Assembly (NCBI RefSeq): GCF_009377195.2
Contig: NZ_VJXX01000001.1
Location: 1-64,000 of the forward strand
DNA: 64,000 nt
From: Arthrobacter bussei
GTDB lineage: Bacteria > Actinomycetota > Actinomycetes > Actinomycetales > Micrococcaceae
Direction of reading: 5' to 3'
The translations under genes were made by a program, and so were the position numbers. The notes below the pieces were generated by a model, which saw only the letters and a list, made by a program, of their open reading frames with translations, did not search any database and was not told the DNA's origin. Below, piece by piece: positions 14,747-27,908 of the stretch (positions within the stretch are counted from its first letter, which is position 1; the number at the start of each line of letters is the position of its first letter).

Positions 14747-16135
14747 CTACCCTGCCGACCCGGCCGACTCCGTGTCCTTGCTGCCCTTGGTGTCTTTCAT
14801 GGCGTGGGCGGTGATGAGGGATTCGACCTCGCTGAGCGTGTACCCCCACTCTTCGAGCTGGAAGAGGTAGTAGGCGGCCTGGGGGCCGGGGCGTCGCCAT
14901 GATTCGCGGCTGAGGTCCGCCTCGTGCGCGGCGAGCATCATCGCCAGGACAGCCTTGTCAGGGTTCGTGGTCGGCCTCTCCACCAGCGCCCGGTAGGCCC
15001 GGTAGTCGGGGTCGGTGACGCCCGCGAGGCCGGCAGCGAGTTCGTGCTTCTGCGCCGTCGCCCGGGCCACCGAGTTGCCGTAGTTCGCGAGGGTCGTTGC
15101 CGTGAACTGCGCCCATCCTTTCGGCGGGGTCTTCCTCCCCAGCAGGGTGGTCAGCCATCCCTGCCGGACCTCGGTGCTCGCGTCCCACTTCTTATTGTTC
15201 TGGATCACCGTGCGGCGCTCTTCCTTCTGCGCGTCCGTCACCGGCCCGGACTGGCCCGCCGCGGGGCTCATACCGAGCCCTTCGCGGACCGTGTACCCGT
15301 GGCCCCGGAAGTTCGCGACCACGCCGGTCACCTGAACCTCGCCCCGGTAGGTCGAGCTGATCACCACGGCGTTCGCATCATCCTTGGTCGCTTTCTCGCC
15401 GTCTGCCCGCAGAAGCATGTGGGGGTGCTGGTGCTCCGGTTGTCCGTATCCGGCCCCTTCGACGACGGTGTTGCCGAGCGCTTCCTGCTCAGCCCTCGCG
15501 GCCGCCATGAGGCGGGCGGTGGTGCGCTCGGCGCGGAGGTAGGCGACCTGGTGGTCGAACTGCTCGGGCTGGACCTCGAGGATGTGCTGCAGGCGCTTCA
15601 CGGACAGCTCCTCGTCGCTGAACTCCTCTAAAGCGGCTGACTGCTCCAACGTCCACCCTGCGGTGAGCGCTTCGGAGGCTGTCGTGTTGGCGCGGTCCTT
15701 CAGCGCGGTCTCCACAAGGGTCTTCTTCGTTCCGGTCTTCTTAGCGATTTGCGCGGCCGTGATGCCCATGAGGGACAGCTGGTGGAACGCTTCGGTGCGG
15801 TCCCGGTCGTTCAGGGCCAGGCGCTGGTCGTTCTCGACCATCTGCTGCACCAACCGGTCAGCCTCACTCAGGGAAGCAACAACGTACACGGGCATGGTCG
15901 GCTGTGCGGTCTCCACGGCCGCCAGCGTCCGGCGCTGCCCGTACAGGACATGCACACCGGCCTCGGTGCGGTGGGCTACGACCGGCTGGAGGACGCCGTG
16001 CTGCTTGATCGAAGCCAGGAACTCAGGATCGAGCCGGACATCAGCACGGACGTTGGCGTCGATGGTGAGCTGGGTCGGGTCGAGGTGCTCAAAGACAGCC
16101 GTGGTGCTCGCTGGGGTGCTGGTCTGGGTGGTCAT
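14747..16135 (-). CDS. parB: ParB/RepB/Spo0J-family partition protein
   Basis: A 462-residue ParB-like protein. The N-terminal ParB domain shows IKQHGVLQPVVAHRT and YGQRRTLAAVE (the GxRR CTP-binding box), followed by LVQQMVENDQRLALNDRDR and the HTH region LMGITAAQIAKKTGTKKTLV. The C-terminal 200 residues are an extension not found in short ParBs, with WGYTLSEVESLI near the end. AAGGAGC precedes the ATG by nine bases. ParB binds centromere sites for segregation of plasmids or chromosomes; no parA is present in the window, which suggests an integrated or rearranged plasmid segment or a ParB-like regulator. Confidence 0.8.
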   Translation of the reverse strand: MTTQTSTPASTTAVFEHLDPTQLTIDANVRADVRLDPEFLASIKQHGVLQPVVAHRTEAGVHVLYGQRRTLAAVETAQPTMPVYVVASLSEADRLVQQMVENDQRLALNDRDRTEAFHQLSLMGITAAQIAKKTGTKKTLVETALKDRANTTASEALTAGWTLEQSAALEEFSDEELSVKRLQHILEVQPEQFDHQVAYLRAERTTARLMAAARAEQEALGNTVVEGAGYGQPEHQHPHMLLRADGEKATKDDANAVVISSTYRGEVQVTGVVANFRGHGYTVREGLGMSPAAGQSGPVTDAQKEERRTVIQNNKKWDASTEVRQGWLTTLLGRKTPPKGWAQFTATTLANYGNSVARATAQKHELAAGLAGVTDPDYRAYRALVERPTTNPDKAVLAMMLAAHEADLSRESWRRPGPQAAYYLFQLEEWGYTLSEVESLITAHAMKDTKGSKDTESAGSAG

Positions 16136-16646
16136 GGGTTGTTGCTCCTTCGGTCACGAGGTGGGGAGGGCCTGTGGTGGTGGCACGTGCTGCTCGGCTC
16201 TTCCCCCGACGCTTCTATGTCTTATCAAGCGGTCGTCAGCGGGTGCGGGCCAAGTTGTCTGCCGGTGGCGGGGCGCCTTAGGTGACCGGCCAGCGTCCCC
16301 TCTCCCCCGACGTTTTTGCCTGCTGGCGAAGCTTGCGGAGCTGTGCCCGACGGAGCCGGGGCAACCCGAAGGGCAAGCAGTCGATGGGTTGTAGGAGGAA
16401 ATAAGCGAAGCGCCGACACAACGCATCGACTGCGCAGCCGTCCGCAGGACGGTTGAGCAGGTGGAGCGGGCACGTACGATCTGAAGGACAGCAGACAAAA
16501 ACAGAAAAACGCTTCTACAGCCCGAGCGAAGCGAGGTCCGTGACACGAGGGCTTCGATTCGTCGGGAAACCACCACAACGAATACTTGTTCGGTAGGTTC
16601 TGAACTCAGATGGTCTCAGTAGCACCAAAATGTGGGGGAATCACGG
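16136..16646. other. intergenic region with a structured RNA candidate
   Basis: Between divergent parB and the DUF488-partner gene. It contains the 189-base structured element at 16313-16501 and a flanking block (about 16519-16539, gagcgaagcgaggtcc) that is shared with the second copy. No protein-coding gene is supported. Confidence 0.5.
16313..16501 (-). ncRNA. structured noncoding element, copy 1
   Basis: The ends TTTTTGCCTGCTG (16313-16325) and CAGCAGACAAAAA (16489-16501) pair along 13 positions when read on the minus strand (one U-G wobble); on plus there is a C-A mismatch. Inside, 16377-16386 pairs perfectly with 16424-16433, and 16388-16392 with 16418-16422. A CCGTCC/GGACGG hairpin lies at about 16439-16452. 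Copy 2 (27548-27745) keeps the layout with different helix sequence. Shared unpaired blocks include ggaaataagcga and gaaggacagcagacaaaaa. I know no named family that matches. Confidence 0.65.
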
Positions 16647-21783: not shown

Positions 21784-22218
21784 TTATCGGGTGGTGAGAG
21801 TGGCGTGAAGGTCGGTGACGCGCTCGAGGATGTCGTCGCGGACCAGCCGCATCCGCTCGATGCCGTCGATCCCGCGGTCGCTGGGCTCGTCAGTTTCCCA
21901 CCGCTCGTAGAGGGTGCCTTCGACGTCGTCGACCTGCGCTTCGGGGCCGAGGATGACGACGATGTCCGCCTGCTCCTGGTCCTCGACGGTGATCTGGCGG
22001 GGGACGTTCTGGCTGATGTCGACCCCGACCTCGGCCAGAACCTGGGCGGAAAGATCGTTGACCGCGGAGCCGGGCTTCGAGCCGGCGGAAGCGGTGGTCA
22101 CAGTATCTCCTGCGACTTTGTCCATGAGGCCGGCAGCCATCTGGGACTTGCCTCCGTTCTTCACGCACACGAACAGGACAGAGGGCTTGTCGGCCTTGAA
22201 AGTCACAGGGATACTCAC
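21784..22218 (-). CDS. arsC: arsenate reductase-like protein of the low-molecular-weight phosphatase family, variant active site
   Basis: 144 residues with the fold of LMW-PTP-type Ars[21 protein letters not shown] at the start and ADIVVILGPEAQVDD later. The usual CX5R loop of this family is C18-VKNGG-K24, so the arginine is replaced by lysine; the loop is otherwise intact. The GTG start gives MSIPVTFKADKPS. It lies between arsR and arsB and probably reduces arsenate for ArsB export, possibly with mycothiol as in corynebacterial enzymes. The lysine form may alter oxyanion binding. Confidence 0.8.
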   Translation of the reverse strand: MSIPVTFKADKPSVLFVCVKNGGKSQMAAGLMDKVAGDTVTTASAGSKPGSAVNDLSAQVLAEVGVDISQNVPRQITVEDQEQADIVVILGPEAQVDDVEGTLYERWETDEPSDRGIDGIERMRLVRDDILERVTDLHATLTTR

Positions 22219-22309
22219 TTCTTCTGAGTGGACGGAAGGAAATCAGGAATCAAGCAGGGGCCAAGCAGGAACCGGACGGGAACTAGGTTTGGCCCGGGTG
22301 GCTGGGGTG

Positions 22310-22699
22310 TTACTTGGGTTCGGTGAGGACGCCGGCGAGGGCGTCCAGAGCGCCGGGCACGATGGAGAAGTACGCCCACACGCCGCGCTTTTCCCGGTGC
22401 AGGATCCCGGCGTCGACGAGGATCTTCAGATGATGCGACACCGTCGGCTGCCCGAGTTCCAGGGGCTCGGTGAGGTCACATACGCAGGCTTCATTCTCGG
22501 CGCTGGCGGAGATTAGTGAGACCAGGCGCAACCGGTTCGGGTCGGCGATCGCCTTGAACTGCCTGGACAACGCCTCAGCCCGCTCCGCGCTCATCGCCGG
22601 CGCACCGGACGGCACGCAGCACCGACCCTCATCAACCATCTCAGTAGTCGCGAGGCCCGTGTTCGCAGCCATAGTTCGGGGCTCGGAAATCGTCGTCAT
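22310..22699 (-). CDS. arsR: arsenic-responsive repressor ArsR
   Basis: 129 residues, winged-helix ArsR/SmtB family: FKAIADPNRLRLVSLIS, then CVCDLTEPLELGQPTVSHHL and HHLKILVDAGILHREKRG. Candidate As(III) ligands are an adjacent Cys27-Cys28 pair near the N terminus plus Cys72/Cys74 before the recognition helix. This resembles the corynebacterial CgArsR type, which uses an N-terminal CC pair with one further cysteine, more than the E. coli ELCVC-only type. ATG 22699 is chosen; the frame upstream to 22753 crosses the operator. It should repress both divergent ars units. Confidence 0.9.
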   Translation of the reverse strand: MTTISEPRTMAANTGLATTEMVDEGRCCVPSGAPAMSAERAEALSRQFKAIADPNRLRLVSLISASAENEACVCDLTEPLELGQPTVSHHLKILVDAGILHREKRGVWAYFSIVPGALDALAGVLTEPK

Positions 22700-22720
22700 G
22701 CAACCCAGCATACCCGCACA

Positions 22721-22759
22721 TTGACAACCGTCGATATATCTCCGCATACTCAATATCGA
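22721..22759. promoter_or_regulatory. divergent ars promoter and ArsR operator
   Basis: TCGATAT (22731-22737) and ATATCGA (22753-22759) form an inverted repeat. On the plus strand TTGACA (22721-22726) lies 18 bases before CATACT (22745-22750), so the dyad overlaps a promoter for the arsC-trxB-arsO unit. Binding of ArsR is inferred from position. Confidence 0.6.
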
Positions 22760-22880
22760 AGACAGTCAATCTCTCCTCGGACACCTGAGTAGGCAGTGTC
22801 TGAGGAGCGGTTCGACTCCTACCCACTATCCACGAGGCCTGTCCGGATCACCGGAACAGAGCGAGACCTGAAGGATCACC

Positions 22881-23390
22881 ATGACTGCCGAGACAGCAGA
22901 AACCACTCCTGAGACCAGCTCTGATACCGCTGGTTTGCCCGATGATCTCGCCGGGAAAAAGCCGTCGGTCCTGTTCGTCTGCGTCCACAACGCCGGTCGG
23001 TCGCAAATGGCCGCCGCGTACCTGAACCACCTGTCCATGGGACGTATCGAGGTCCTCTCCGCCGGGTCCCAGCCCGCGGACCAGGTGAACCCCGCTGCGG
23101 TCGAAGCCATGAGGGAGGAGGGCATCGACATCACGGCCGAGGCCCCGAAGATCCTCACCACCGAGGCCGTGAAGGCCTCCGACGTCGTCGTGACCATGGG
23201 CTGCGGGGACGAGTGCCCCTACTTCCCGGGCAAGAGGTACGAGGACTGGGTCCTGGAGGATCCCGCCGGCAAGGGCGTCGAATCCGTCCGCCCCATTCGG
23301 GACGAGATCAAGGGCCGCATCCAGCAGCTGATCAAGGAACTGCTGCCCACCATCGACTCCAGCACCAGCACCGGTACACCGAGCGCCTGA
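22881..23390 (+). CDS. arsC: arsenate reductase ArsC, LMW-phosphatase type
   Basis: 169 residues with a complete CX5R loop: [20 protein letters not shown], Cys34 to Arg40. A second cysteine pair (Cys108 and Cys112 in [18 protein letters not shown]) and the aspartate of the DP(A/G) loop are present. The layout fits actinobacterial ArsC that reduces arsenate with mycothiol or thioredoxin. A trxB-type reductase follows 57 bases later, which favours a thioredoxin-linked redox cycle. The first 25 residues are an acidic extension. It is the first gene of the plus-strand ars unit. Confidence 0.9.
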
Positions 23391-23446
23391 CCCGCGCACT
23401 CCCTTCACCCGTCGCTCAGCGCTTCCAGGATTCGAAAGGCACCGTC

Positions 23447-24457
23447 ATGACAGGCACACAGACAGATTCTCAGCAGGACGTGCGACAGGAGAAGATCATC
23501 ATCGTCGGCTCCGGCCCCGCCGGGTACACGGCGGCGATCTACGCGGCCCGGGCGGGCCTGGCACCGAGGGTCATCGCCGGCGCCGTGACTGCCGGTGGTG
23601 CGCTGATGAACACGACGGAGGTCGAGAACTTCCCCGGGTTCACCGACGGCATCCAGGGACCCGAGTTGATGGAGAACCTCCGCGGCCAGGCCGAACGCTT
23701 CGGCGCCGTCATCGAATACGACGACGCGGCCACCGTCGAACTCACCGGGACCCTGAAGACCGTCACCACGCTGAGCGGCACCACGTACCAGGCGCCAGCG
23801 GTGATCCTCGCGACCGGCTCCGCCTACAAGGAGCTCGGCCTACCCGATGAGAAGCGCCTGTCCGGTCGGGGCGTGTCGTGGTGCGCGACGTGTGACGGGT
23901 TCTTCTTCCGCAACCAGGACATCATCGTCGTTGGTGGCGGGGACTCGGCCATGGAGGAAGCCCTGTTCCTCACCCGCTTCGCGGCCACCGTCACCGTCGT
24001 CGTCCGCGGCTCGGCCCTGCGGGCGTCGAAGATCATGGCGCAGCGGGCCATGGACAACGACAAAATCCGCTTCGCATATACCAGCGCGATCACCAAGATC
24101 CACGGGGACGCGAAAGTCACCGGGGTCACCCTTACCGACACCATCACCGGGGACACCCGGGAACTGGATGCGACCGGGATTTTCGTAACCATCGGGCACC
24201 TGCCCCGCACCGACCTCGTCCAGGACCAGGTCACCCTCGACGACGAGGGATACATCGTCGTCGACGCGCCCACCACCCTGACGAACCTCTCCGGTGTCTT
24301 CGCCTGCGGCGACGCCGTCGACCACCGGTACCGGCAAGCCATCACCGCAGCAGGATCCGGCTGCGCCGCAGCCCTGGACGCCGAACGCTACCTCGCTGCA
24401 CTCGAGGACGCCCCCAGCATCGCCACCGCTCTCATCGAGGAGAACGCCCATGTCTGA
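23447..24457 (+). CDS. trxB: thioredoxin reductase-like flavoprotein (ArsT)
   Basis: 336 residues from ATG 23447 with AAAGG eight bases upstream. It has two dinucleotide folds ([18 protein letters not shown] and [17 protein letters not shown]) and the redox pair Cys146-Ala-Thr-Cys149 in WCATCDGFF, plus the FAD-binding [19 protein letters not shown]. This is a normal low-molecular-weight thioredoxin reductase. In streptomycete ars clusters the same gene is called arsT and recharges the ArsC cycle. No thioredoxin gene is adjacent, so it must use one encoded elsewhere. The stop overlaps arsO by eight bases. Confidence 0.9.
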
Positions 24458-25958
24458 CACCACCCCCGCCTCAGCTGCCATGACTGGCCTCCCTGAGTCC
24501 ACTGAGCTCACTGATCTGCCGGTCGCCGTTATCGGCGCCGGACCGATCGGGCTGTCCGCGGCCGCGAACCTCCTCGAGCAGGGGCTGACCCCGATCGTGT
24601 TCGAGCAGGGAGATAGTGTCGGATCAGCGGTGCGTCAGTGGGCGCACATTCGCCTGTTCTCGCCCTGGCAGTACAACATCGACTCCGCCGCCCGGCGTCT
24701 TCTGGAACCCACAGGCTGGACCGAACCACGCCAGACCGCCCTCCCCTACGGGCGCGAGTTGGTGGAGGCCTACCTCGAGCCCCTCGCCGCGATCCCCGCG
24801 ATCAGGGACACCCTGCGCTTCAAGAGCACCGTCGTTGCGGTCACCCGCCTCGGCATGGACAAGACCCGCACCAAGGACCGCGACACCACACCCTTCCTCG
24901 TTCGCGTTACCAGCCCCGAGGGCACCACCGATTACCTCGTGCGCGCCGTCATTGACGCCTCCGGCACGTGGAGCCAGCCCAACCCCCTCGGCCAGGCCGG
25001 CCTGCAGGCTCCCGGAGAAGACGCGGCGTGCGTGTTCATCACCACCGCGCTGCCTGACGTCGTCGGAACCGAACGCGACCACTTCGCGGGCAAGACCGTG
25101 ATGGTTGTCGGGGCCGGCCACTCGGCCGCGAATACCCTCATCAACCTCGGCCAGGTCGCCAAGAACGAACCCGGCACCCGCATCCTCTGGGCCGTACGCG
25201 GTAGCGGATCTGCACAGAAACTCTATGGAGGCGGGGACCTCGACGGCTTGCCCGCACGTGGGCAGCTCGGCAGCCGCCTGCGCACCCTCGTCGGCGACGG
25301 CGTCGTCGAGCTCGTCACCAACTTCACCATCACCAGCTTCGAGACGACCGACACGGGCCTGGCGGTGACCGCGTCGACGCCGGACGGCCCCCGGACCATG
25401 GACGTCGACGTCCTCGTGCCGGCGACCGGGTTCCGGCCGGACCTTGACATCCTGCGCGAGCTGCGCCTGGAACTCGATCCCGCCGTGGAGGCTCCGCGTG
25501 CCCTCGGACCCCTCATCGACCCGGAGTTCCATTCCTGCGGAACAGTCCCGGCCCATGGGGCGGACGTCCTGGCGCACCCGGAGAAGGATTTCTACCTCGT
25601 CGGGATGAAGTCCTACGGACGCGCACCCACCTTCCTGCTCGCCACCGGGTACGAGCAGGTCCGCTCCGTGACCGCAGCGATCGCCGGCGACCTCGAAGCC
25701 GCATCCCGCCTCCAGCTCGAGCTGCCCGAAACCGGGGTCTGCAGCACGGACCTCGGCGGCTCCTGCGACACCCCTGCCGCAACAGCACCCGCTGAAACCA
25801 CTGCGGCCACTGGTGCGTCCTGCGGAACTGGAACCACCGATGATGCGGCCTCTGAGGCTGGTGCTGGTGGGTGCTGCTCCGCGCCCGAGCCACAACTGGT
25901 CATGATCGGGTTCCCCACCGGCACGGCCCACGGCCGTTCCGGCGACCCCGACTACTGA
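24450..25958 (+). CDS. arsO: ArsO-like flavin monooxygenase with cysteine-rich tail
   Basis: 502 residues. Two nucleotide-binding motifs are seen: [20 protein letters not shown] for FAD and [18 protein letters not shown] for NADPH, with [18 protein letters not shown] and [11 protein letters not shown] typical of ArsO-type or flavin-containing monooxygenase-like proteins found in actinobacterial ars operons. The last ~70 residues are a T/A-rich tail with six cysteines ([24 protein letters not shown]), a pattern able to bind As(III) or another soft metal. The start overlaps trxB, so the two are translationally coupled. The exact reaction of ArsO is not established. Confidence 0.8.
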
Positions 25959-26024
25959 CACCGACCAAGGACTGGGAATGGTGGCCGGTTCGGATAAAGG
26001 CCGGCAAGCAAGTTGAAGGAGGAC

Positions 26025-26109: not shown

Positions 26110-27246
26110 TCAGGGAAGCGCAATCGAAGGACACCGCACCTCTCCCTGGTGGGGCTGTTCCCCTGAAACATGGGGTCGGGCTGAATCCGCTGTGGCGTAA
26201 AGCGAGTTGAGTTGGCGGTAGAGGATTCGGGCGATGTAGCGCTTGAGAGATCTGCGGATCTCGCGGTAGCTGCGGCCTTCTCGGGTGCGTTTGGTGACGT
26301 AGTCCCGCGTTCCGGGGTCGTGGACCATACGGGTCATGGTGATGGTATGCAAGGCACGATTGAGGCGCCTATCCCCGCCCCGGTTGAGCCTGTGTCGGAC
26401 AGTGTTACCGCTTGAGGCGGGCAAGGGATTCACTCCTGCCAGTGAGGCGAAGGCAGCTTCGCTGCGAACCCTTCCTGGATGCGACCAGTCTGTCAGGACG
26501 GTGGCGACAGTGACAGCACCGGCGCCCACCATCTCCAGCAGCGGCGCCGCTGGGCTTTGCTGGATCAGCTCGGTCATGCGCTTTTGGTTTGCAGTCAGCT
26601 GAGTGGTCACTTCAAGAACGCGGCGCGCCAACCGGACTGCTTCCTCGCGCGCGATCAGCAACTCGATTGGCTCGTCTCGTTCCCGCCATCTGGTGATTGT
26701 GGCGATCTGGGCGGCAACCAGCGGTTTACGAGCGTCGATTCCCAGGTCGTGTGCCCGGAGTAGGGCGATGAGTGCGTTGACGTTTACTGTTCGTTCGCGT
26801 GTCAACTGATCCCGTGCTGCGCTGAGGATCCTGAGCCCGGCACGGGTTCCTTCATCCCGGCGCGGGATTCGGAGCTGGGACTCCTCCAAGCTGAGGACTG
26901 CGGTTCCGATGGCGGCGGCGTCCAGCGGGTCGGATTTGCCGATTGTCCGACGGCCTCGGGCGTTCATCCGTGGAGCTTCGGCGACGTCGTAGCCGGCGTC
27001 GGCTACTGCTCGGGCCAGGCGTGCACCATAAGAGCCGATACCCTCAACGGCCCACAGACAGGCCGTATCGCCGCCTGTCCGTCGGCCTACCCAGGCAAGT
27101 GCGCGCGAAAGCCCTGCCGAGGTGGTCGGGAACTGTTCGCACGCGACCCGTTGCTTGGTACTGGCCTCGATGATGGCGTAGGTGTGGGTGCGGGCGTGGC
27201 AGTCCACGCCGATGACGAATGGGCGGGTCTGCGCAACGATAGTCAA
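26110..27246 (-). CDS. IS110-family transposase, second and different element
   Basis: About 378 residues from a TTG at 27246, chosen because GGAGG lies nine bases upstream; the GTG at 27255 abuts it. DEDD motifs: FVIGVDCHARTHTYAI, LWAVEGIGSYG and GKSDPLDAAAIG. The C-terminal domain has VGAGAVTVATVL, ASLAGVNPLPASSGN and RGGDRRLNRALH. It is clearly of another subgroup than the transposase at 12088 (they share only family motifs). Its noncoding guide-RNA region would lie upstream, at 27247 and beyond. It directly follows the arsenic cluster and may have brought or truncated it. Confidence 0.9.
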   Translation of the reverse strand: MTIVAQTRPFVIGVDCHARTHTYAIIEASTKQRVACEQFPTTSAGLSRALAWVGRRTGGDTACLWAVEGIGSYGARLARAVADAGYDVAEAPRMNARGRRTIGKSDPLDAAAIGTAVLSLEESQLRIPRRDEGTRAGLRILSAARDQLTRERTVNVNALIALLRAHDLGIDARKPLVAAQIATITRWRERDEPIELLIAREEAVRLARRVLEVTTQLTANQKRMTELIQQSPAAPLLEMVGAGAVTVATVLTDWSHPGRVRSEAAFASLAGVNPLPASSGNTVRHRLNRGGDRRLNRALHTITMTRMVHDPGTRDYVTKRTREGRSYREIRRSLKRYIARILYRQLNSLYATADSARPHVSGEQPHQGEVRCPSIALP

Positions 27247-27547
27247 TGCGGCCACCCTCCTTCCTTTCGAGCGGGCAAGACTGGTCGCATCACGACCGGC
27301 ACTGACCTGGGAGGAGTCACGTCGAGGCAATACTGTGATGAGCCACAACCTCCAGAGGCTGGGCAAGCTTCTAATCAAGCCACCGTCGTGGGACAGGTCA
27401 AGGCCGGCCACTCCACCCAGCGCGGACAAGTCGGGGGAAATGCACCCTGGCGGGGCAATTGTTTTTTCGAGTCACGCGCCAGGCAGAACGACCGACATCA
27501 ACACTGCCAGCTAGTCCCAGACCAGCCACCGTCAAGACTCACAGTTG
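27247..27547 (-). other. noncoding upstream part of the second IS110 element
   Basis: No gene is visible. By analogy with other IS110 elements this is where the bridge RNA should be encoded, but no second copy exists in the window to show which parts are conserved. It abuts the structured element at 27548. Confidence 0.4.
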
Positions 27548-27745
27548 TTTTTTACCTGCTGGCGAGCTCGCTCGCTCGTCCCCGACGGAGCAGTGTCAAC
27601 CCCGAAGGGACAGAGGCCTGCCAGAAACTTCGAAGGAAATAAGCGACGCAGGAGCGCCGTAGAGGTTTATGGCCGGCTTTCGTCGGCGCAGCCGATTGAC
27701 GCTGTGGAGCGGGGGCACACAATCCGAAGGACAGCAGACAAAAAA
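27548..27745 (-). ncRNA. structured noncoding element, copy 2
   Basis: TTTTTTACCTGCTG (27548-27561) and CAGCAGACAAAAAA (27732-27745) pair along all 14 positions on the minus strand, two of them G-U wobbles; on plus these two are mismatches. The inner helix 27616-27628 with 27665-27677 pairs at 11 of 13 positions although its sequence differs from copy 1. A CCCC-GAA-GGG hairpin block and ggaaataagcga are shared with copy 1. The downstream flank (27788-27826) recurs at 28875-28914. Confidence 0.65.
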
Positions 27746-27908
27746 CATCAGGGTCGGGTGCGACGAAGGAGCGCCCGGGCCCTATTCGGCCGGAGCGAAG
27801 CAAGAGGTCCATTGCCCTGCTCGGAGCCCCCTGGCGGAGAGCAGGGAAGCACTACAGGTGAGACACCCGCGGCCCGCCGGCCATGACACTTTCCGTAGAG
27901 TTGTGACC

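Follow-up and report, generated by a model that had tools for sequence, protein, structure and literature searches.

The window analysed here, the first 64 kb (64,000 nucleotides) of a 1.73-Mb contig of Arthrobacter bussei, contains two copies, c1 and c2, of a non-coding element of about 200 nt. An intact parB-like gene lies downstream of c1 and an IS110-family transposase gene downstream of c2, both on the minus strand. The features of the two copies and their neighbours are as follows.

14747-16135, minus strand: parB-like gene, intact, 462 aa, ParB_N (PF02195), downstream of c1
16136-16307, minus strand: leader between c1 and parB, with a GGGGGAGAGGGGA..GCTGGCCGGTCACC..CGCCCC block at its start, then about 100 extra bases
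16308-16505, plus strand: element copy c1 (covariance model R1, 168.7 bits; fold)
16312-16325, plus strand: c1 closing helix P1, 5′ arm; in the model, template for the first transcribed bases
16342-16349, plus strand: c1 helix P2, 5′ arm, opposite the promoter spacer (consensus structure columns 39-46)
16377-16433, plus strand: c1 apical helix with the GGAAATAAGCGA loop
16453-16458, plus strand: c1 -35-like hexamer TTGAGC
16467-16474, plus strand: c1 helix P2, 3′ arm, abutting the -10 (consensus structure columns 212-219)
16475-16480, plus strand: c1 -10-like hexamer TACGAT, 16 nt after the -35, outside the main helices
16489-16502, plus strand: c1 closing helix P1, 3′ arm
26110-27246, minus strand: IS110-family transposase gene, downstream of c2
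27543-27748, plus strand: element copy c2 (R1, 178.3 bits; fold)
27547-27561, plus strand: c2 closing helix P1, 5′ arm
27577-27584, plus strand: c2 helix P2, 5′ arm
27696-27701, plus strand: c2 -35-like hexamer TTGACG
27710-27717, plus strand: c2 helix P2, 3′ arm
27718-27723, plus strand: c2 -10-like hexamer CACAAT, 16 nt after the -35
27732-27746, plus strand: c2 closing helix P1, 3′ arm

An initial annotation had described two structured copies of about this length, with a shared closing helix and an inner helix that differs in sequence between the copies although its pairing is kept; all of this was confirmed. By blastn c1 and c2 match each other in two pieces (E values of 5e-8 and 2e-7). 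The GGGGGAGAGGGGA..GCTGGCCGGTCACC..CGCCCC block of the c1 leader resembles the block found after annotated copies elsewhere. The plus strand of c1 would be the folding strand, of the type transferred in conjugation, and parB, on the minus strand, would be the gene that c1 serves.

Both PF03432 relaxase matches of the genome lie on contigs other than that of the window, and no TrwC-type relaxase was found in the genome; therefore, the window copies apparently sit in a chromosomal plasmid remnant, and they may no longer be active. The genome has a third copy of the element on contig C41, which also carries one of the PF03432 relaxases. IS110 perhaps inserted at the site of the original gene of c2. 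Judging from the open reading frames, positions 21784-26000, between IS110 and a resolvase gene, appear to hold an arsenate-reductase/thioredoxin-reductase/flavoprotein-like gene block beside the element remnant.

Family and structure of the element

Blastn found matches to c1 in 44 plasmid records and to c2 in 31, all of them from Arthrobacter, Paenarthrobacter, Pseudarthrobacter or Citricoccus. The covariance model R1 was built from alignment A2, which holds 16 of 23 copies (five duplicates or near-duplicates and two copies with a different apical loop were left out), and it matched 95 of 295 sampled Micrococcaceae genomes, in 17 of 32 genera. At the order level R1 matched 20 and model R2 23 of 396 genomes (10 and 13, respectively, outside Micrococcaceae); 7 of 394 genomes matched at the class level (4 outside) and 2 of 396 at the phylum level (1 outside). 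The order, class and phylum sets overlap, and the matches outside Micrococcaceae are weaker. The homologues are largely from Micrococcaceae, and some of the stretches used below come from related plasmids (L050 is the same plasmid as L008).

We searched 65 fetched stretches, with 164 matches, and a further 8, with 32. The best 150 of the 164 were aligned, which brings 182 of the 196 matches into the counts, and 21 of these were opposite-strand shadows; 161 copies remain in 73 stretches, with up to five in one stretch. They include 158 full-length and 143 unique copies and 88 representatives at 90% identity. Alignment A5 comprises 72 of these representatives, with 5 truncated and 11 distant or low-scoring copies left out. 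The element has no match in Rfam: no covariance model matched in the whole window at the gathering cut-off, or around c1 or c2 at E values up to 1. Phage origin was looked for with c1 only, which had no match in 50,697 phage records.

We predicted the structure with RNAalifold from the strand that is the template of the downstream gene (the template strand), using the MAFFT alignment A5, which was not fitted to any structure. The result is a multi-branch fold in which 86.8% of cells are paired across the 72 copies. Changes on both sides occur in 41 of the 60 pairs, compared with 34.1 in shuffled alignments, of which 1 in 500 reached 41. The covariation score was 0.368, against 0.149±0.006 for shuffles (0 of 500 reached the observed value) and at most 0.110 when the structure was slid. 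The homologues thus contain the further compensatory changes by which the initial annotation had proposed to judge the element, and at the level of the family its description is supported: the element is non-coding, structured and covarying, and it recurs in a mobile setting. Of the 72 representatives, 45 have the GGAAATAAGCGA block, also noted there as conserved, in its exact form, and 8 others differ by a C at one position.

Individual copies depart from this plan. In two (L005:23600-23817 and L009:10008-10215) the GGAAATAAGCGA apex is swapped for a GGATCC-type or similar hairpin and, therefore, is not strictly required. In four others (L061:785-991, L106:9455-9655, L076:9341-9541 and L114:35224-35420) the 3′ arm of P1 is replaced by a common sequence of about 19 nt (reverse complement TTGACAACATCATTGAGAY) that begins just after a TCC-GGA hairpin, beyond which the sequences diverge. 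From the sequence, insertion or recombination may have recurred at this site. An 18-mer of the common sequence also occurs once in L068, away from any element, and an ISL3 transposase gene adjoins that sequence in L114.

Gene context and relaxase polarity

The 13 annotated stretches contain 40 elements. One of these stands where its record ends; for each of the other 39 a downstream gene is listed, always co-oriented with the element. From element to start codon the distance is 58-79 nt in 33 of these cases and 153-2929 nt in six. The genes led by elements are dprA, DUF4192 genes, parB or ParB-N genes and small unknowns (one gene annotated as unknown proved to encode DUF4192), together with one IS110 and one integrase gene. 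The initial annotation had seen no protein neighbour in common to the two copies; for the family this is wrong, as the copies lie directly upstream of co-oriented plasmid genes. The intervening leader of about 70 nt is itself conserved across plasmids and genes, with the G-rich and C-rich blocks GGGGGAGAGGGGA..GCTGGCCGGTCACC..CGCCCC and a Shine-Dalgarno-like site. By tblastn, 119 of the 161 elements have a co-oriented homologue of a query protein within 400 nt downstream, and the other 42 are unmatched. A simple gene caller, run on the unannotated loci, gave a next gene in sense orientation in 127 of 157 cases, with 52 elements overlapping a called gene; these counts proved unreliable, as open reading frames with the longest start enter the element, and were replaced by the annotated loci and tblastn. 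All elements of a locus share one orientation in each of the 50 multi-copy loci (L008 and L050, the same plasmid, both counted).

The orientation of the elements also follows that of the relaxase gene. In the 30 stretches with a relaxase in view, all 74 elements share the orientation of the relaxase and 73 lie upstream of it; the one downstream is a low-scoring match (70.1 bits, L086:17370). These relaxases comprise 26 distinct proteins at 90% identity and belong to both MOBP and MOBF. Upstream genes were co-oriented with the relaxase in 24 of 24 cases when led by an element, compared with 82 of 155 other genes (Fisher P=1e-6, the genes not being independent); eight annotated loci have a relaxase in view, and all but L113 entered this count. 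Selection acting on the genes themselves, and not on the elements, could account for part of the polarity of the gene blocks.

At all 14 MOBF loci (L007, L009, L049, L057, L058, L063, L066, L069, L072, L073, L077, L084, L107 and L114) the sequence TGCAWGAGGTGTGAC occurs on the minus strand about 44-91 bp upstream of the relaxase gene. Plasmid F has TGCGTGGGGTGTG on the same strand, next to the gap between a transglycosylase gene and traM; we take this to be the nic of F, and 10 or 11 of its 13 letters agree with TGCAWGAGGTGTGAC. A search of the literature for the F nic sequence brought up only unrelated papers. By this analogy TGCAWGAGGTGTGAC is a putative nic of the actinobacterial MOBF plasmids, and it lies on the strand that our model takes as transferred. 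At the MOBP loci no nic site was identified: a search upstream of mobC or the relaxase gene for TCCTG, which we take to be the RP4-type nic motif, gave nothing consistent across loci, and where TCCTG precedes three related MOBP relaxases it is on the plus strand, which, if it were a nic, would be the wrong one for our model and would count against it. A conserved inverted-repeat block with GGGGTCGCTGCGCTGG stands just before mobC in most of the 12 MOBP loci examined (L110, L112, L113, L005, L054, L056, L061, L111, L064, L065, L051 and L068) and is, from its sequence and place, a likely oriT. Taken together, the polarity of the relaxase genes and the F-like putative nic of the MOBF plasmids suggest that the transferred strand is the template strand of the genes led by the elements.

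Promoter motif and proposed folding strand

The 3′ arm of the template strand holds a -35/-10 pair, TTGAGC-16-TACGAT in c1 and TTGACG-16-CACAAT in c2, with pairs such as TTGACG-16-CATAAT and TAGACG-16-TAGAAT in other copies. In the 72-copy alignment, base counts by column are T 70, T 45/A 25, G 71, A 51, C 47 and G 41 for the -35 and T 48/C 19, A 71, mixed, A 52, A 67 and T 72 for the -10, which corresponds to TTGAcn or TAGACn, 16 nt and mostly (T/C)AnnAT; the spacer is 16 nt in 70 copies and 17 nt in two. The mean match to the promoter, 6.64 of 12, is the best among 1372 placements differing in strand, offset and spacing (mean 2.44, s.d. 0.55). At least 9 of 12 positions matched in 46 of the 72 copies on the template strand and in 2.4-2.6% of shuffles; on the sense strand no promoter was found within the element by this measure (0 of 72). 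The -35 matches are imperfect, the second base being A in 25 of 72 copies. When copies were scanned without alignment, several of the low-scoring or distant ones showed no -10-like hexamer.

The promoter is fitted between the helices. The last pair of P2 adjoins the -10, and P1, a 14-bp helix, begins 8 nt after it in 56 of the 72 copies, 9 nt in 14 and 7 nt in two. The -35 and the spacer are mostly helical, in P3 and P2, and P1 forms duplex again from about +3. The stretch between, -12 to about +2 in the usual promoter numbering, begins with the -10 and takes no part in the main helices. It holds only a 3-bp TCC-GGA hairpin, which starts with the final T of the -10; on the template (5′-arm) side the same gap has another small hairpin. 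In the predicted fold this gap with its flanking duplex would thus approximate the bubble of an open complex. Read as duplex, the promoter would point away from the gene; in the fold, where the 5′ arm serves as template, it would read into the gene.

Folding by itself did not identify the strand. Against dinucleotide shuffles, with DNA parameters, the folding z-scores were -4.07 (plus) and -4.34 (minus) for c1 and -3.50 (plus) and -3.41 (minus) for c2; both strands of both copies beat their shuffles and, therefore, folding of the two copies cannot choose between them. The template strand was the lower in folding energy in 88 of 88 representatives with DNA parameters and in 86 of 88 with RNA parameters. 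We discarded this advantage as decisive evidence, because it mostly reflects base composition, the shuffles of c1 and c2 differing in the same way.

The mispairs also bear on the strand. In five helices of the template strand, over the 72 copies, G-T was seen 370 times, against about 444 expected from column composition, and A-C 83 times, against about 182; A-C, which would be G-U in a sense RNA, is thus avoided about twice as strongly as G-T. In P2 the counts were 53 G-T (about 61 expected) and 2 A-C (about 32 expected). The helices used in these counts derive from the template-strand prediction; the 41 pairs common to separate predictions from either strand contain 148 G-T and 67 A-C.

The initial annotation had taken the molecule to be an RNA of the minus strand, because mismatches in the closing helix on the plus strand (C-A or A-C, one in c1 and two in c2) become G-U on the minus strand. 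The mismatches are there, and as A-C mismatches in P1 on our proposed strand they count against our model; the P1 columns concerned are also mismatched in 26 and 29 of the 72 copies. However, the strand assignment rested on three mismatched pairs in two copies, and over the family it is not supported. Single-stranded DNA is favoured over RNA by the avoidance of A-C, by the sigma70-type promoter that lies between two helices of the template strand and reads into the gene, and by the tie of element orientation to the relaxase; on these grounds the minus-strand RNA is probably wrong, and we rejected it.

A cis-acting leader RNA of a plasmid regulon (a riboswitch, an attenuator or a protein-binding 5′ UTR), made in the sense direction and controlling the gene about 70 nt downstream, would account for the constant short distance to the start codon, the strong covariation, the conserved leader after the element and the fact that P1 of c1 and c2 has G-U on the sense strand where the template strand has A-C. 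It does not, however, agree with the lack of a sense promoter within the element, with A-C being avoided more than G-T on the template strand or with a conserved promoter fitted between the helices of the other strand, and it gives no reason for an orientation locked to the relaxase. We consider such a leader unlikely.

Proposed mechanism and relation to known systems

Single-stranded-DNA promoters are established for enterobacterial plasmids, and we think it probable that the element is such a promoter, functionally like Frpo of plasmid F. In conjugation, the transferred strand would enter the recipient 5′ end first and would serve as template for genes directed towards oriT. Its elements of about 200 nt would each fold into the multi-helix structure, with the non-template promoter sequence given by the 3′ arm and the template by the 5′ arm. 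P3 and P2 would render the -35 and the spacer mostly double-stranded, and P1 would provide the downstream duplex from about +3. Host RNA polymerase could then bind a ready-opened promoter and read out through P1, making mRNA for the gene about 70 nt on (parB-like, dprA, DUF4192 or a small unknown) before the second strand exists. Synthesis of the second strand would destroy the fold and switch the promoter off. What we infer here is the use of the element by the polymerase and its timing.

We hold somewhat less firmly, yet still favour, a broader reading: that the elements are the first family of single-stranded-DNA promoters in Gram-positive bacteria, that they arose independently of Frpo, that they have a pre-opened geometry (predicted duplex up to -13, unpaired except for the small hairpin to about +2, duplex from +3), and that they serve MOBP and MOBF plasmids for expressing parB-, dprA- and DUF4192-type genes ahead of second-strand synthesis. 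The model of a single-stranded-DNA promoter gives no account of the conserved leader that follows the element or of the GGAAATAAGCGA motif at its apex.

The folded transferred strand might instead act as an ssi/sso site, recruiting RNA polymerase or primase to prime the second strand, with gene expression secondary. The strand logic is the same, plasmids have several copies, and Frpo itself has been described as both promoter and primer site (Masai and Arai 1997, by its title as cited). One priming site would be enough, however, yet the copies are tied to their own genes at constant spacing, and we regard priming as the main role as rather improbable. An ordinary double-stranded promoter or operator would explain the good sigma70-like hexamers, but the duplex form fires away from the gene, and duplex DNA has no need of 41 pairs with changes on both sides; this is very unlikely. 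A dispersed MITE-like mobile repeat, suggested by the inverted ends and the many copies, we can practically dismiss, given the constant place before start codons, the single orientation and the covariation between divergent copies.

The Frpo/ssi sequences of F and ColIb-P9, as described in the passages available from two papers, are non-coding leading-region copies upstream of ssb, parB-like and establishment genes, and their folded transferred strand rebuilds a -35 and a -10 (PMC11541004, PMC9849209). According to the latter passages, the downstream fusions tested did not rise significantly at early times when F lacked Frpo1 or Frpo2 (PMC9849209). The present element is similar in that its fold, on what is probably the transferred strand, carries a -35/-10 pair reading into the gene, and in its leading-region place with genes pointing to oriT, as judged by the relaxase (74 of 74 co-oriented, 73 of 74 upstream) and the putative MOBF nic. 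In favour of the single-stranded-DNA promoter, the leading region of F has the same layout, its SSB, ParB-like, psiB and DUF932 genes pointing towards traM and traY. Over about 420 nt the transferred strands of Frpo1 and Frpo2 have folding energies of -109.6 and -109.3, against -98.8 and -100.1 for the other strand, a comparison to which the caveat of base composition applies; in the shortest sub-windows the advantage was absent.

The element differs from Frpo in several respects. It is unrelated in sequence to the two copies of F, the only Frpo plasmid compared: blastn of c1 and c2 against F 50000-69000 gave a best E value of 0.12, outside the two Frpo repeats, and R1 scored at best 13.4 bits on the leading region of F and 12.5 bits inside one Frpo repeat, at a 34-nt AT-rich hairpin. 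It is about 200 nt long and multi-branched, the sequence from the -10 to about +2 lying where two helices join, and it occurs on actinobacterial MOBP and MOBF plasmids.

Repeats at these places have been reported before. Twelve Arthrobacter and Paenarthrobacter plasmids share DNA repeats 5′ of DUF4192, DprA and ParB genes, according to a passage of PMC10494377 citing Mihasan and Brandsch 2016. The elements of pAO1 (L111) stand before dprA, DUF4192 and a ParB-N gene, and by their location the repeats of Mihasan and Brandsch, as cited, are very probably the same DNA. The passages citing that work give the repeats no promoter role; the repeats are thus already reported, and the single-stranded-DNA promoter mechanism for them is new. 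Among the papers listed by our literature searches (titles, abstract openings and passages, with subscription journals mostly outside), none describes an actinobacterial or other Gram-positive single-stranded-DNA promoter. In the passages available, homologues of Frpo have so far been sought mainly by BLAST with known sequences, with candidates from few islands, and an island of Streptococcus pneumoniae is said to have no Frpo-like sequence (PMC11541004). A covarying actinobacterial family makes transcription from incoming single strands in Gram-positive bacteria directly testable, and its fold suggests how the polymerase could use single-stranded DNA. The elements also mark the leading regions of actinobacterial plasmids and point to dprA, DUF4192 and ParB-like genes as candidate early establishment functions.

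A Gram-positive parallel in the passages available is EGeRS1 of the Bacillus pLS20 family, likewise a repeated structured sequence just upstream of several establishment operons. According to the available parts of PMC8708921, its authors considered EGeRS1 as a single-stranded-DNA promoter and rejected this; the case of pLS20, where establishment genes can lie on the strand that is wrong for such a promoter, also counts against our model (PMC8708921). As described there, EGeRS1 is 400-600 bp long, with no promoter found in its fold and with the non-template strand transferred, whereas the elements described here are about 200 nt long and their transferred strand would be the template.
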